This document shows positions 5,339 to 12,738 of a stretch of DNA of 64,000 bases, in pieces. The notes beneath the pieces were generated by a model. That model did no database searches. It saw only the letters and a program-made list of their open reading frames with translations, and was not told the origin of the DNA. The DNA lies in NCBI RefSeq assembly GCF_000789255.1, contig NZ_CP009552.1, positions 310,001 through 374,000 on the forward strand, given 5' to 3'. This DNA is from Geoglobus acetivorans (lineage in GTDB: Archaea > Halobacteriota > Archaeoglobi > Archaeoglobales > Archaeoglobaceae). Made by a program: the position numbers and the translations under genes. Each line of letters opens with the position of its first letter. Positions within the stretch are counted from its first letter, which is position 1.

Positions 5339-5373
5339 GGTGCATCACTCTCTTTTTTGTCCTCGCCGGGTAG

Positions 5374-5387
5374 CTGTTCAGATTTTT
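5374..5387. repeat. Target-site duplication, left copy
   Basis: CTGTTCAGATTTTT, identical over 14 bp to 6351-6364 on the other side of the insertion sequence. The perfect identity means the insertion has not been rearranged at its ends. Confidence 0.85.
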
Positions 5388-5413
5388 TGTCTTTTCCCGA
5401 AATTATTTCCCAC
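5388..5413 (+). repeat. Left terminal inverted repeat of the IS element
   Basis: 26 bp beginning TGTCTTTTCC and ending ATTTCCCAC. It matches the reverse complement of 6325-6350 at 21 of 26 positions, with the inner 9 bases identical. Confidence 0.8.
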
Positions 5414-5429
5414 TTCAACAAACCCCCAT

Positions 5430-6335
5430 GTGAAACTTGACGAGAAAGCGATAAAATGGATTATCAGAGAGAAAGAGAAGGGTACACCGACAAAGGAGAT
5501 AGCAGAGATCGAAAACATAACACCAAGAAGAGTAAATCAGATCTACAAGCAATACAAAGATACTGGAGAAATACCAAAGCCAAAGAAACCAGGTAGACCT
5601 AAAAAAGAACTATCAGAAGAAGAAATAGAAGCCATAAAAGAAGCCTATGAAGAGTACAGGTGTAATGCAGTAGTTCTCCAAACAATCTTAAAGGAAAGAG
5701 GTTACAGAATAAGCAAGAACAAAATACACGAAGTGTTGAGAATGAACGGCTATGCTAAGGAGGAGAAGAACAAGAAAAAGCGTAAAAAGTGGATAAGGTA
5801 TGAGAGAAAGCACTCTATGGAATTATGGCATGCAGACTGGTTTTTCTATAACGGGAAGTGGATAATTGCTTATCTGGACGATGCTTCCCGTCTGATTACT
5901 GGTTACGGAGTATTTGATAAAGCAACATCTGAGAATGCCATAAAAGTGCTAAAAGAAGCCATGGATGATTATGGCAGGCCGGAATCAATCCTGACGGATA
6001 GAGGTACTCAGTTCTACGCATCTGCAGGGGAGAAGAAGGCTAAAGGAGTATCTAAATTTGAGAAATTCCTTGCAGAGAATGAAATTAAGCATATTGTGGG
6101 TAGGGTGAATCACCCACAAACGAATGGAAAGATAGAGAGGTTCTATGGAACGCTGGAAGCTAAAATCAAGTATTTCGATACAGTAGATGAATTCATGGAG
6201 TGGTACAATCACAAAAGACCCCACATGAGTCTCAACTTAGATGAACTGGAGACTCCCTATAAAGCATTTTTGAGAAAGTTGACTCCTGAGAGAATATTGA
6301 GTTATTCGTGGAGGTGGTTTGATGGTGGGAAATGA
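5430..6335 (+). CDS. IS481-type DDE transposase
   Basis: 301 residues. The N-terminal helix-turn-helix (~1-50; EIAEIENITPRRVNQIYKQY) is followed by a PGRPKK AT-hook-like linker (54-59), a second helical DNA-binding region, and an RNase H-fold rve catalytic core. The catalytic triad is visible as D136 (HADW), D190 (LTDRG) and E236 (NGKIERFYG), so the enzyme should be active. I place the start at the GTG at 5430: codons further upstream in this frame lie outside the element or in its inverted repeat, and homologous-looking sequence begins at VKLDEKAI. The stop codon lies inside the right inverted repeat. Confidence 0.88.
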   Translation: MKLDEKAIKWIIREKEKGTPTKEIAEIENITPRRVNQIYKQYKDTGEIPKPKKPGRPKKELSEEEIEAIKEAYEEYRCNAVVLQTILKERGYRISKNKIHEVLRMNGYAKEEKNKKKRKKWIRYERKHSMELWHADWFFYNGKWIIAYLDDASRLITGYGVFDKATSENAIKVLKEAMDDYGRPESILTDRGTQFYASAGEKKAKGVSKFEKFLAENEIKHIVGRVNHPQTNGKIERFYGTLEAKIKYFDTVDEFMEWYNHKRPHMSLNLDELETPYKAFLRKLTPERILSYSWRWFDGGK

Positions 6336-8265: not shown

Positions 8266-9672
8266 ATGAAAAATTACGATGCGATAATAATAGGTACCGG
8301 TTCGGGGGTATCTATTGCAAACAGACTCCTCAGAGATAGGCCTGATGCGAGAGTTGCAGTTATTGATAAGGATAAACCCGGTGGAATATGTCTTACAAGA
8401 GGTTGTATACCCTCAAAGCTTGTAATTTCTCCTGTGGAGATTCTCCACGACGCTGAACGGCTATCCGGGCTTATTGAGGTCAGGGACATTCGGGTAAACT
8501 TCAGAAAAATTATGGAGAGGATGAGGGAAAAGGTGGGCAGAGAAAGCAGCATGATCGAGAGATCGCTTGAGGAGATGGAAAACATTGATTATTTTAAGAA
8601 AGAGGCATCTTTTACTGCGCCATACACATTAAAGGTTAGCGGGGAAGAGATAACTTCAAAAAAGATCTTTATTGGCTCAGGGTCAAGGCCCATGGTACCG
8701 GAAATAAAGGGGCTGAGGGATGCGGGCTTTCTGACAAGCGACACGCTGCTTGAGCTTGAAGACATGCCAGAAAGCATGATCATCGTTGGTGGAGGATATG
8801 TTGCGGTTGAATACGGAAACTTCTTTGCTCGGGCTGGCTGCGATGTAAAAATAGTCGAAATGATGCCTCGCATTCTTTCAAACGAGGAGCCGGAAATTTC
8901 TCGAATCGTACAGGAAGAGCTTTCGAATCATGCAGAGCTGTTTACATCACATAGGGTTACAGGCGTTGAAGGAAATGGAAAAGTAAAGCGCATTGTTGCG
9001 GAAGGTCCAGGCGGGAAAATAAAGATTGAAGGTGAAGAAATACTCGTGGCTGTGGGTAGAGAATCCAACTCCGACATTCTGAAACCCCAGCTGAGTGGAA
9101 TAGAAACAGATGAGAGAGGATGGATAAAGGTCAACGAATTCCTTGAAACTTCCGTTCCTGGCATTTACGCAATAGGGGATGCGAACGGGAGGTACATGTT
9201 CAGGCACGTGGCAAACAGAGAAGCGGCCACAGCCTATGCGAACGCCTTTCATGATGCCGGAGTGAAAATGGACTATTCTGCTGTACCTCATGCTGTTTTT
9301 ACTCAGCCAGAGGTTGGGAGTGTTGGTATGGCTGAGAAAGAGGCCGTGGAGAGGTTTGGTAGGGAGAACATACTGATAGGATTCGAGGAGCTGAAAACGA
9401 CCGGAAAGGGTCTTGCCATGAACTCAAAAGGATTTGCCAAGGTGATTGTTCACGGCGAGACTGGAAAGATTCTCGGAGGCCATATTGCGGGCAAATCAGC
9501 GTCAGTACTCGTTCAGGAGATTGCCACGCTAATGGCTCTCGATGCTACGTACCACGCTGCATTACATGCGCTGCACATTCATCCATCCCTCAGCGAGGTT
9601 GTAAGCTGGGCATTCGGCAACCTCATGAGCGTTGACGAATATCACCGGATGATGGAAAAACTTGGTTACTGA
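8266..9672 (+). CDS. Dihydrolipoamide-dehydrogenase-like flavoprotein disulfide reductase
   Basis: Group I pyridine-nucleotide disulfide oxidoreductase, 468 residues. FAD-binding GTGSG near the N-terminus, redox disulfide GGICLTRGCIPSK (Cys-x4-Cys), NAD(P)-binding GGGYVAVEYG and the FAD motif TSVPGIYAIGDANGRYMF are all present. The C-terminal dimerisation domain has the His-Glu active-site pair in HIHPSLSEVV. No 2-oxoacid dehydrogenase genes are nearby, so the substrate could be lipoamide, a low-molecular-weight disulfide or a metal ion. The ATG at 8266 follows AAAATATATTTTTC. The 3' end overlaps the convergent radical SAM gene by 7 bp. Confidence 0.82.
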   Translation: MKNYDAIIIGTGSGVSIANRLLRDRPDARVAVIDKDKPGGICLTRGCIPSKLVISPVEILHDAERLSGLIEVRDIRVNFRKIMERMREKVGRESSMIERSLEEMENIDYFKKEASFTAPYTLKVSGEEITSKKIFIGSGSRPMVPEIKGLRDAGFLTSDTLLELEDMPESMIIVGGGYVAVEYGNFFARAGCDVKIVEMMPRILSNEEPEISRIVQEELSNHAELFTSHRVTGVEGNGKVKRIVAEGPGGKIKIEGEEILVAVGRESNSDILKPQLSGIETDERGWIKVNEFLETSVPGIYAIGDANGRYMFRHVANREAATAYANAFHDAGVKMDYSAVPHAVFTQPEVGSVGMAEKEAVERFGRENILIGFEELKTTGKGLAMNSKGFAKVIVHGETGKILGGHIAGKSASVLVQEIATLMALDATYHAALHALHIHPSLSEVVSWAFGNLMSVDEYHRMMEKLGY

Positions 9673-10793
9673 CAGATTTGCTTTACATCGTAAATGTTGC
9701 ACATCACAGGGTCGCAGCCCAGAATGTCTCCGGAGTACATCAAAGCCCTGTATCTGCAACCTCCCCTGCATTCGCCCACATACTGGCATGAGCATTTAAG
9801 TTCGTCGAGTCTCCAGATATACCTTTTTTTCAGATTTTCCCAGCAATTTTTGAGACCATTTCTGATGTTTCCACACGGTTCTTCAAAAAACCCGCATTTT
9901 ACAATGTTGCCGTCGGGATCCATCTCGCAGTAATGGGTACCGCAGGCATACCCCTGGATGCTCGGATAGCTCCTCTTCCCAAAGCCGTAATTCTGGAGCA
10001 CCTCCTTTATACTGTCTGGAGGTGGCAGGAGGTCTTTTTCCGTAACGGGAACGTCTATACTCCATCTGTAAACATTCAGGCTTTCGAGAACTCTACTCAT
10101 CTTTTCAAACTCGTTTATGTTGTATTTTGTAACCATTGTTGCAATGCTAACATCTACGCTTCCTGAGAGGGATTTGATGACATCTATCAGCCTTTCCCAT
10201 CCGGCATTTCTCAGCTTTCGGTGCCCTTCGAACCCATCCAGGCTGATCTGGACTTCATCAACGAGTTCTGTGATTTTATCCATTCTGTTATCCTTCAGGA
10301 GATATCCGTTCGTCATAAGGACTATTCTGAACGGGTATTTGCGGGCGTATTCCAGCAGAGTAAAGATTTTGGGGTGAAGCAGCGGTTCTCCTCCTGAAAT
10401 AAGCAATTTAAGTCCGCCAATACCGTAAAACTCGTCAATTGCTTTCCTGAACGTGTCCTCGTTTACATGGGAAATCTTCTGGTGGATGTAGCAGTGCTGA
10501 CATTTAAGGTTGCAAGAATGTGTTACAGAAATGAGGAAGTGTCTAAGGGAAGGTTCGCTCTGCTCAACATACGTGTTCTCCTTGCTTTCTGAACTGACCT
10601 CAAGAATCTCTTCTGAAATCAAAAAATTCAGGATTTCTTCATCAGCTTCTCTTCTACTTCCATCACAGTTCAATAAAAAATAAAAGGCTTCATCATCGAG
10701 TTCATACAGGGTGTCGCTTTTTGCATTGTAAGCGTAATAATTACTGTCGAACTTCCTCAGCAGGACCCTTTCTGCAAGCCTGAGATGCTGCAA
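9666..10793 (-). CDS. Radical SAM/SPASM protein with PqqD-like N-terminus (peptide-maturase type)
   Basis: 375 residues. Residues 1-65 (LAERVLLRKFDS...YELDDEAFYFLLNCDG) resemble PqqD-type RiPP recognition elements. A radical SAM core follows, with CNLKCQHC (Cys94, 98, 101) and a GGEPLLHP motif. The C-terminal SPASM region has Cys at 334, 336, 342, 346, 360 and 365, enough for auxiliary Fe-S clusters. This architecture is typical of enzymes that modify ribosomally made peptides, although some members act on protein subunits. The start is a TTG at 10793, overlapping the four-cysteine gene upstream by 53 bp, so translation is coupled. The substrate is unknown; the two small Cys-containing ORFs upstream are the obvious candidates. 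Confidence 0.8.
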   Translation of the reverse strand: MQHLRLAERVLLRKFDSNYYAYNAKSDTLYELDDEAFYFLLNCDGSRREADEEILNFLISEEILEVSSESKENTYVEQSEPSLRHFLISVTHSCNLKCQHCYIHQKISHVNEDTFRKAIDEFYGIGGLKLLISGGEPLLHPKIFTLLEYARKYPFRIVLMTNGYLLKDNRMDKITELVDEVQISLDGFEGHRKLRNAGWERLIDVIKSLSGSVDVSIATMVTKYNINEFEKMSRVLESLNVYRWSIDVPVTEKDLLPPPDSIKEVLQNYGFGKRSYPSIQGYACGTHYCEMDPDGNIVKCGFFEEPCGNIRNGLKNCWENLKKRYIWRLDELKCSCQYVGECRGGCRYRALMYSGDILGCDPVMCNIYDVKQICQ

Positions 10794-10971
10794 GCTCTAT
10801 CTCCTCCAGCGTCAGTCTGCCTGTTTCGACAAAATATTTCAGCACTTTGTAGCCAGCGCATTCAAGAGTGTCTCCGGGTTTGTAGAAATCACAGGCCCTG
10901 CAGATTGCGGTTCTGTAATCAATCTCAGCATGAGTCTCCACACTTGCAGATACCCGTATCTCTCCTCTCAA
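10741..10971 (-). CDS. Small four-cysteine protein upstream of the radical SAM enzyme
   Basis: Up to 76 residues with exactly four cysteines (24, 27, 38, 66 from the TTG start): AICRACDFYKPGDTLEC then ...AASQACRKG. CxxC plus two more Cys could bind zinc or an Fe-S cluster, or be sites of modification. Only a TTG (10971, with AGGTGA seven bases upstream) or a GTG (10941) is available as start, so the N-terminus is uncertain; the core from about IDYRTAIC is the well-supported part. Archaeal SPASM enzymes of the AF_0577/Mhun_1560 type are recalled as having small Cys-rich partners. I cannot confirm that this protein belongs to such a family. Confidence 0.6.
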   Translation of the reverse strand: MRGEIRVSASVETHAEIDYRTAICRACDFYKPGDTLECAGYKVLKYFVETGRLTLEEIELAASQACRKGPAEEVRQ

Positions 10972-10987
10972 CTTTGCTCACCTTCAT
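10925..10987 (-). CDS. Candidate 20-residue cysteine-containing peptide (MKVSKVERRDTGICKCGDSC)
   Basis: An ATG at 10987 opens 20 codons ending in TGC TGA. GGGTGAT (10992-10998) is a good SD site four bases before the ATG. A TATA-like box, CTTATATAG (11018-11026), lies in the right position upstream, so this is the first ORF of the radical SAM transcript. The peptide is basic for ~10 residues and then ends CKCGDSC, three cysteines in the last seven residues. A leader plus Cys-rich core next to a PqqD/SPASM enzyme is the layout of a RiPP precursor. It overlaps the start of the four-Cys gene in another frame, so it could instead be a leader ORF that couples translation. Confidence 0.45.
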   Translation of the reverse strand: MKVSKVERRDTGICKCGDSC

Positions 10988-11017
10988 GTCGATCACCCAA
11001 TTAACTGCGTTAAGAAA

Positions 11018-11026
11018 CTATATAAG
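11018..11026 (-). promoter_or_regulatory. TATA-like promoter of the radical SAM operon
   Basis: On the minus strand it reads CTTATATAG, preceded by an A-rich BRE-like AAAAAGA. Transcription should begin near 10995-11000, a few bases before the SD and ATG of the 20-residue ORF. The remaining 70 bp to the pheT stop codon are AT-rich with no further gene seen. Confidence 0.5.
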
Positions 11027-11094
11027 TCTTTTTATTAAAAAAAGATGTCTATTTACTATCATGTAATACTTTATTTTGCATTCTTGTTACCACA

Positions 11095-12738
11095 TCAGAT
11101 GAGAATACCAGTATTGAACAGCTTTGAAAGTTCCAGCTCGAACCCAACCACGGGCATTGTTATCTCGAATCTTTCCAGAACTTCCGGATGCAGTTCTCCA
11201 AAGACCCCGACTTTTTTTCCTCTGACGATAATATCTGCTCTCCGCCCCTTTATGAAGGCCCTGTCATCACTTTCCTGAGCTTCCCACTCGATGTCCAGCT
11301 CATGCATCACCGCCTGCACAACACTTCTGATCTCTGCAAAATTGGCTCTCGAGTGAGTTACACAGGCTGCGAGGCTGAGTCTGTTTTTCGTATTCACGAC
11401 GACGTCTCCCACCTCAAAAATCCTCTGGGGCATCGCTTCATGCTTGTTGTGTCTTAACAGTTCTATTAGCTTAGGGAGTATGTGGGTTCTCAGAACTGTA
11501 TGCTCCTCGGTCAGAGGGTGCATAACAGGGGTGTAGTCGTCCCAGGGCCTTGCAGTTCTGTTCATGTATTCGTACATTGTCCTCTCATTTGTGAGTGTGA
11601 ATGTTATCACTTCTGTAAACCCGAGACCAATCATTATCTCTTTTACAATATCCTTGAGGTTGTTCCATTCATGTTCCCTTCCGACACCAGGTGTCTGGGG
11701 ATATCTTGCAGCAATTCTGTCGTAGCCATATCCAATGGCTATATCTTCAATCACATCCCAGGGGTGCATCACATCTGCCCTGTATGGAGGGATGGTTACA
11801 GTTACCTCATCATCACCGATTTCAAAGCCGTATCTCATTCTTCCGAGTGCGAGTCTCAGTTCATCGTCGTTTAGTGTGAAGCCGAGGAGGGAGAAAATTT
11901 CTCTTTTGCTCACATTCATCTTTTCTGGAGTCATGTCTGGAGTTCTTTCCACCCTGTCAGGATAGATTATTTCCACGCTTTCGATAACTCCACCTCTGTC
12001 TGCAAACATGGCGGTGAGTATTCTCAGGGCTTTGTCAACGTTCTCGTCAAACCCTGTAACGTCAATGAACAGTCCAGAGGTTCCTTCTCTGACTCTTGTC
12101 TTTTCAGCATTTATGACTGGAGGGAATGAAATTACCTCGTCTTTTGCATCTATGATCATGGGGTATTTTTCTGAGTTTTCGAGAATGAAGCCGTACTCCT
12201 GTCCTTTGGGGTGTGCTTCAAGGATTTCCTTCACACTCATGTCCCTGTCGAAGTCGAGTGGAACGAATGAAAAGTTCTCATCAACTGCCGTATAGTGGAG
12301 TGGAAAGTTCACCCTGTTCAGGTCGTGTATTCCAATTGCCATCTTTCTTCTGTTTCTGCCGATCGTCCAGTGCAGGTCTTCCTGAATCTGAATTATGGAT
12401 CTCAGGAGTTCTTCATTAACGTGAATGTTTCTGACGATACAGCCGGTTATTCTTGGCCTTACACTCAGGACACTTTCATCGACATATATCTTCCAGTTTC
12501 CCTCGTTCACCTTGTAATCCCTGTAACCAAATTCGATGTCGAGGAATCCTCTCAACGCTCTTGCGACACCCTCAACGCTGTACAGGTCAGGACGGTTCGG
12601 GAAAAATTCAACATCAAGGTGATCGTCAGCTATACGTTCAATATCGCATCCGAGCATGGGTAATTTTTTTAGTATTGTGTTTCTATCGACCCCAACCATT
12701 CTCTCAAGCTCGTCCCAGTATAGTGTTATAACTGGCAT
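11095..12738 (-). CDS. pheT: Phenylalanyl-tRNA synthetase beta subunit
   Basis: Beta chain of the alpha2-beta2 enzyme that charges tRNA-Phe. At 547 residues it is the archaeal/eukaryotic-length form. B3/B4 editing-domain sequence (FFPNRPDLYSVEGVARALRGFL near the N-terminus), the B5 domain (~270-345, GYDRIAARYPQTPG following) and a C-terminal catalytic-like module (WDDYTPVMHPLTEEHTVLRTHILPKLIELL) are recognisable. The start ATG at 12738 gives the conserved MPVITLYWDELERMVG opening. The alpha subunit gene is not in this window. It diverges from the DUF59 gene, and the 100 bp between them must hold both promoters. Confidence 0.93.
   Translation of the reverse strand: MPVITLYWDELERMVGVDRNTILKKLPMLGCDIERIADDHLDVEFFPNRPDLYSVEGVARALRGFLDIEFGYRDYKVNEGNWKIYVDESVLSVRPRITGCIVRNIHVNEELLRSIIQIQEDLHWTIGRNRRKMAIGIHDLNRVNFPLHYTAVDENFSFVPLDFDRDMSVKEILEAHPKGQEYGFILENSEKYPMIIDAKDEVISFPPVINAEKTRVREGTSGLFIDVTGFDENVDKALRILTAMFADRGGVIESVEIIYPDRVERTPDMTPEKMNVSKREIFSLLGFTLNDDELRLALGRMRYGFEIGDDEVTVTIPPYRADVMHPWDVIEDIAIGYGYDRIAARYPQTPGVGREHEWNNLKDIVKEIMIGLGFTEVITFTLTNERTMYEYMNRTARPWDDYTPVMHPLTEEHTVLRTHILPKLIELLRHNKHEAMPQRIFEVGDVVVNTKNRLSLAACVTHSRANFAEIRSVVQAVMHELDIEWEAQESDDRAFIKGRRADIIVRGKKVGVFGELHPEVLERFEITMPVVGFELELSKLFNTGILI

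Follow-up and report, generated by a model that had tools for sequence, protein, structure and literature searches.

A 20-residue cysteine peptide encoded with a small cysteine protein and a radical SAM/SPASM enzyme in Geoglobus acetivorans and other archaea: a candidate peptide modification system

The window analysed here is a stretch of 64,000 nucleotides from the iron-reducing archaeon Geoglobus acetivorans, corresponding to positions 310,001-374,000 (G000:C1) of a chromosome of 1,860,815 bases. An operon on its minus strand runs from a TATA box through a Shine-Dalgarno-like site and a 20-codon ORF to a small Cys ORF and a radical SAM ORF (Table 1); all of these parts, which had been proposed in an initial annotation of the window, are present where it placed them. 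The small Cys ORF and the start of the radical SAM ORF overlap by 53 bases, and the GTG at 10941 is taken as the likely start of the former because related loci align only from about there. A TATA-like box lies at a similar position upstream of nearly all copies of the 20-mer that are found beside the enzyme gene (cis copies), and a GGTGA-type site precedes most of them. Within the six frames of the 64-kb window, the 20-mer is the sole instance of a C.C..[ST]C-stop terminus, and Rfam gave no match within positions 9000-12000. It is virtually certain that the peptide, the Cys protein and the enzyme constitute a real gene system. Elsewhere in the window, an integrase-core (rve) transposase-like ORF lies near the operon (5340-6335), and the 397-residue product of positions 13302-14495 matches the COX1 family weakly, in a lineage of anaerobes; next to its gene lie an ORF resembling DUF2249/TusA and another for Fe-S assembly.

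Table 1. Features of the operon, in window coordinates
Feature	Coordinates	Strand	Basis
TATA box TTATATAG	11018..11025	minus	sequence; similar boxes in relatives
Shine-Dalgarno-like site GGGTGATC	10991..10998	minus	sequence
20-residue peptide MKVSKVERRDTGICKCGDSC, proposed precursor; C-terminal core ICKCxxSC	10925..10987	minus	conservation, purifying selection
Small Cys protein, ~66 aa, [IV]CxxCxFY...LEC	10741..10941	minus	GTG is the probable start, with some uncertainty
Radical SAM/SPASM protein, 375 aa, TTG start, proposed maturase	9666..10793	minus	PF04055 E 5.7e-20; alignments A1 and A6; PDB profile matches
N-terminal region, residues 1-75, RRE/PqqD-like by position	10569..10793	minus	weak profile matches
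CNLKCQHC, [4Fe-4S]/SAM motif (C94, C98, C101)	10491..10514	minus	invariant in A1 and A6
SPASM region, seven Cys: C284-G295xxxxC300-C334-C336-C342-C346-C365	9699..9944	minus	all seven invariant in A1 and A6

The designation of the largest protein as a radical SAM/SPASM enzyme is borne out by the CxxxCxxC motif and the seven SPASM cysteines, and these ten residues are predicted to be the cluster ligands of a SPASM protein with two auxiliary clusters. The Pfam SPASM model itself matches only one of 17 members (E 0.0035), and no radical SAM or precursor model of NCBIfam reaches its curated cut-off. In a profile search of solved structures, the best matches were SkfB, CteB (5wgg, which we take to be CteB) and PqqE, with SkfB placed first or second. 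The N-terminal region had also been described as a PqqD-like domain. Here the position fits, and a PqqD-like/RRE domain is plausible at residues 1-75, where an RRE would sit, whereas the profile matches are weak: PF05402 matches one of 19 members (E 0.074, not significant), and a PDB search with this region alone gave no match. The alignment of the A6 profile with CteB begins at residue 16 and runs through the N-terminus of CteB. Thioether formation at Cys is common to CteB and SkfB, as is an N-terminal RRE, which in the case of CteB has been shown to bind the leader (PMC8326336). A single-sequence AlphaFold model of the enzyme was too poor to use (mean pLDDT 45).

Every complete orthologous locus in the same family and in G038 carries a 20-mer with the same C-terminus upstream, followed by the Cys ORF. 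The peptide is conserved in 16 cis copies and in copies elsewhere in the genomes. The consensus of its homologues is MKIxKVxRxKxGICKCxxSC, with C14, K15, C16 and C20 invariant; the alignment made from the orthologous loci gives MKVKKVERRKxGICKCxxSC, in which K5 is invariant as well. Across all copies, the peptide comprises 20-22 residues with three Cys. Among copies of equal length, synonymous sites are saturated (0.65 to 1.0) and nonsynonymous change ranges from 0.02 to 0.20, giving a pN/pS of about 0.3 or less. As judged from these substitution patterns, the 20-mer is under purifying selection, with its amino acids kept while synonymous sites are saturated, and this conservation is the peptide's own because the Cys ORF does not overlap it in loci such as L047 and L055. 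The 20-mer has no NCBIfam match, and neither small ORF matches Pfam.

The peptide is also encoded away from the enzyme. Such trans copies occur in eight of the 20 positive genomes of the same class (G002, G004, G007, G016 and G038, and two each in G018, G036 and G037) and in most genomes of family f36. Those of the same family as G. acetivorans follow the pattern MKIxKVxRxKxGICKCHxSC plus one residue, with His after CKC, and a promoter around TTATTATACAT is common to most of them. The Cys protein and the enzyme are encoded together, with the peptide elsewhere, in G036, G037 and most f36 genomes, and G. acetivorans itself has only the cis copy, which is not beside copper genes. The occurrence of extra copies far from the enzyme resembles the pattern of RiPP precursors that act in trans.

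Enzyme orthologues were found in 18 other genomes in a search of 60, and an enzyme profile found the protein in 24 of 394 genomes of the phylum; a single-protein scan returned only two distant matches in genome contigs and none in viral contigs. With a peptide search profile built from 25 sequences, the 59 genomes of the same class divide into 20 that encode both enzyme and peptide and 39 that encode neither (Fisher p 3.6e-16, not corrected for relatedness; such p-values overstate independence because the genomes are related). In a second archaeal class, the enzyme occurs in 21 of 200 genomes and the peptide in all 21 of these, although the peptide score is weak in one (G459). The sole clear exception is G455 (family f36, 91% complete), which has two peptides (L151) and in which the enzyme was not found; an assembly gap or a loss may account for this. 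Three further peptide matches in the second class are partial and probably due to chance. The system is thus present in at least 41 archaeal genomes, and it is conserved and probably non-antibiotic. Its short encoded candidate precursor is conserved and co-occurs with the proposed modifying enzyme, as expected of a RiPP system. Conservation of the small ORFs beside homologous enzymes had been put forward as a check of the initial annotation, and the outcome agrees with it: within the class of G. acetivorans, no genome has the 20-mer without the enzyme or the enzyme without the 20-mer, and the Cys protein was always found to adjoin the enzyme.

The small Cys protein is encoded beside every intact radical SAM gene examined, including those of the distant families f31 and f36, and is found once per genome. 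It had been described as a four-Cys protein; its conservation next to the enzyme holds, but only three of the four cysteines are conserved (C13, C16 and C27 in alignment A2, in the arrangement CxxC...LEC), and the fourth (QAC) is optional. It may be a partner of the enzyme, for instance a small Fe-S or electron-transfer protein.

The gene context of the peptide suggests copper and thiol chemistry. An extracytoplasmic rhodanese is encoded within ~2 kb of a trans copy in 10 of 17 genomes examined, where random placement would give 0.11 genomes, an expectation based on one to four rhodaneses per genome with the per-genome counts entered by hand. The rhodanese gene lies downstream on the same strand in the same class and is convergent in f36, and because orientation differs between the two lineages, the peptide-rhodanese link has been retained in two arrangements. 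Within the same family, a membrane-anchored thioredoxin-like protein often adjoins the rhodanese. In G009, genes for CopA, CopZ (both named from their sequence), the peptide, the Cys protein and the enzyme follow one another in one direction, with a gap of ~25 bases between CopZ and the peptide; in G018, a copper-type ATPase is encoded ~0.8 kb downstream of one peptide copy on the same strand. DUF411, presumably the CopG family, is found in 13 of the 20 enzyme-positive genomes of the class (one below the curated cut-off) versus none of the 39 negative ones (p 1.9e-8 by genome). Counted by genus, the association is 7 of 10 versus 0 of 6, and as the p-value is then only 0.011, relatedness explains part of the signal; DUF411 is missing from seven of the 20 positive genomes, and copper genes are physically linked to the system in few. 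The DUF411 proteins found here carry CGCC; a CxCC motif is present in bacterial CopG, a copper protein that resembles thioredoxin (PMC7558416). Neither a protease nor an exporter accompanies the trio of peptide, Cys protein and enzyme. Four genomes have MoaA/MobA/MfnA-like neighbours, which are absent elsewhere and look like local synteny.

Several further loci were noted. The G. acetivorans genome has rhodanese homologues without a peptide nearby in two settings. One of them, a copper and cytochrome c gene cluster at G000:C1:1716000-1724000 (L201), encodes CcmF, a CcmH-like protein, a Temptin-like protein with CTLCH, DUF411 with CGCC, a rhodanese, copper ATPases and HMA domains; in the other, the neighbours of the rhodanese homologue are an exported protein rich in Met and a protein resembling thioredoxin. 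In two genera of a sister family (G036:C28, L061; G037:C11, L182), a trans peptide directly precedes an exported CTTCH protein, which in L061 matches PF24784 Temptin_C (E 2.7e-9). Small exported proteins rich in Met, Gly and Tyr (MMGYGMM) are encoded beside peptide or rhodanese loci (L114:3777-4199, L115:3177-3470 and L200:2685-3206), and the one such protein that was scanned gave no Pfam match.

The best explanation of these observations is that the three genes constitute an archaeal RiPP-type peptide modification system, the product of which most likely functions in copper or reactive-sulfur handling; we give this reading a probability of roughly 0.6. The basic N-terminal half of the 20-mer (MKIxKVxRxKxG) would be a short leader to which the enzyme binds through its N-terminal region, and the radical SAM/SPASM enzyme would modify the C-terminal core ICKC(H)xSC. 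The favoured modification, which is tentative, would be a crosslink involving Cys, of the kind made by CteB or SkfB. The three-Cys protein would be an obligatory partner (electron donor or peptide carrier), and precursor copies elsewhere in the genome would be processed in trans. The product would most likely act with the extracytoplasmic rhodanese, the thioredoxin-like protein and copper proteins, although a copper or thiol role is itself a tentative assignment. Conversion of all three Cys to thioethers would leave no thiolates for copper binding, and the proposed chemistry and the copper role may therefore conflict. The initial annotation had suggested that both small ORFs are substrates. 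For the 20-mer, the case is now strong because it is also found in trans and only in enzyme-bearing genomes, one incomplete genome apart, and we infer that it is very probably the substrate of the enzyme; the Cys protein is instead taken as a partner. The suggestion of a metal-binding cofactor gains circumstantial support from the copper-linked neighbours.

Other assignments of roles within the trio have to be weighed against this reading. The small three-Cys protein might itself be the substrate, with the 20-mer as a partner or as a peptide that uses the product afterwards, given that the Cys protein adjoins each intact enzyme gene, including those of genomes with the peptide in trans (G036, G037, G336, G363 and G342). 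However, its CxxC...C pattern resembles a metal or Fe-S site, and it is present once per genome, whereas the 20-mer is multi-copy and in trans like a precursor; this arrangement is unlikely, and both small proteins may be needed. It is slightly less likely still that the 20-mer stays unmodified, as a metallothionein-like or zinc/copper-binding peptide, and that the enzyme has another target. CKCHxSC could plausibly form a thiolate/imidazole metal site and copper-linked genes lie nearby, but the absence of the peptide from all 39 enzyme-negative genomes of the class is left unexplained. The 20-codon ORF might also be an upstream ORF with a regulatory function, which would respond to copper or cysteine and govern expression of the downstream genes, since it lies ahead of the Cys protein gene in cis and of a rhodanese gene at some trans loci, and since copper genes of some bacteria are preceded by cutF, which encodes a small protein with a CxxxC motif (PMC7558416). 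This is very improbable, as about ten trans copies (L145, L147-L149, L151-L153, L168, L185 and L186) have their next downstream gene on the opposite strand, and the co-occurrence with the enzyme would remain unexplained.

Two explanations place the system in other pathways. A role in c-type cytochrome maturation or extracellular electron transfer was considered because genes resembling CcmE/CcmF in G205 and CcmH in G484 (named by eye) are found close to the unit and because several of the iron-reducing hosts have many cytochromes c (PMC4600277). However, G038 (~100% complete) has the full system with two peptides and no CcmC/CcmF match, whereas CcmC/CcmF is present in 55 of the 59 genomes of the class, including 36 of the 39 without the system. 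Moreover, A. sulfaticallidus has a single (monoheme) cytochrome c and A. veneficus has 16 (PMC4600277), yet the system is present in G028, taken as the former, and absent from G010, taken as the latter. A cytochrome c maturation factor was rejected on these grounds, and the broader role is largely refuted. There is similarly little chance that the enzyme modifies a small molecule, e.g., a tetrapyrrole as in the case of AhbD/NirJ, with the small ORFs as accessories. AhbD (96.5 bits) and NirJ2 (91.8) are indeed the best NCBIfam scores of the window protein, but the cut-off is 500 bits, another radical SAM protein in the genome resembles AhbD/NirJ more (by eye), and the profile search of solved structures favours peptide maturases.

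The proposed RiPP-type system shares features with several known systems and is identical to none of those compared. As in SCIFF/ranthipeptide biosynthesis (CteA/CteB), a radical SAM enzyme with an N-terminal domain and a two-cluster SPASM region accompanies a Cys-rich ribosomal peptide conserved across a lineage, and the SPASM region and core of the archaeal enzyme align with CteB. However, the archaeal precursor has 20-22 residues and three Cys, as compared with ~45 residues and six Cys in SCIFF, and is not a SCIFF peptide by this measure; the archaeal system also has an additional three-Cys protein, trans precursors and no NCBIfam match. The sactipeptide maturases (SkfB, AlbA and StsB) are related in that SkfB is among the two best PDB profile matches and the Cys donors lie in the peptide, but the archaeal unit is without exporter, immunity or protease genes and its scores are far below the NCBIfam cut-offs. 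The PQQ pathway (PqqA, PqqD and PqqE) likewise combines a peptide of ~20-24 residues with a SPASM enzyme, a PqqD-like recognition domain (here only proposed) and a cofactor product (here only possible). Unlike PqqA, the ICKCxxSC core has no Glu or Tyr in any aligned copy, so that the peptide is not a PqqA and the crosslinked residues must differ from those of PQQ; PqqB, PqqC and PqqF are also lacking. Metallothioneins and copper-binding peptides resemble the 20-mer in the spacing of Cys (CxC and xSC) and in the copper-linked neighbours, whereas the 20-mer is far shorter and tied to a radical SAM enzyme, and its metal binding is only putative. With methanobactin and other MNIO (DUF692) copper RiPPs, the idea of a copper-related ribosomal peptide would be common, but the archaeal unit has no DUF692 enzyme and depends on another enzyme class.

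Radical SAM RiPPs are known mainly from bacteria. A search of the open-access literature on RiPPs, Archaeoglobus and radical SAM enzymes found no related account, and the peptide-enzyme system is undescribed as far as family libraries and open literature show; a precursor gene this short is likely to be missed by gene finders. There is a fair chance, though somewhat less than even, that these genes represent a new archaeal class of RiPPs, in which 20-22-residue three-Cys peptides with a CKC(H)xSC core are modified by one SPASM enzyme with a three-Cys partner, precursors are dispersed in trans, and the mature peptide serves as a cofactor in copper or persulfide chemistry. The finding thus raises a testable question, namely, whether archaea employ a radical-modified peptide for the handling of metal or sulfur.
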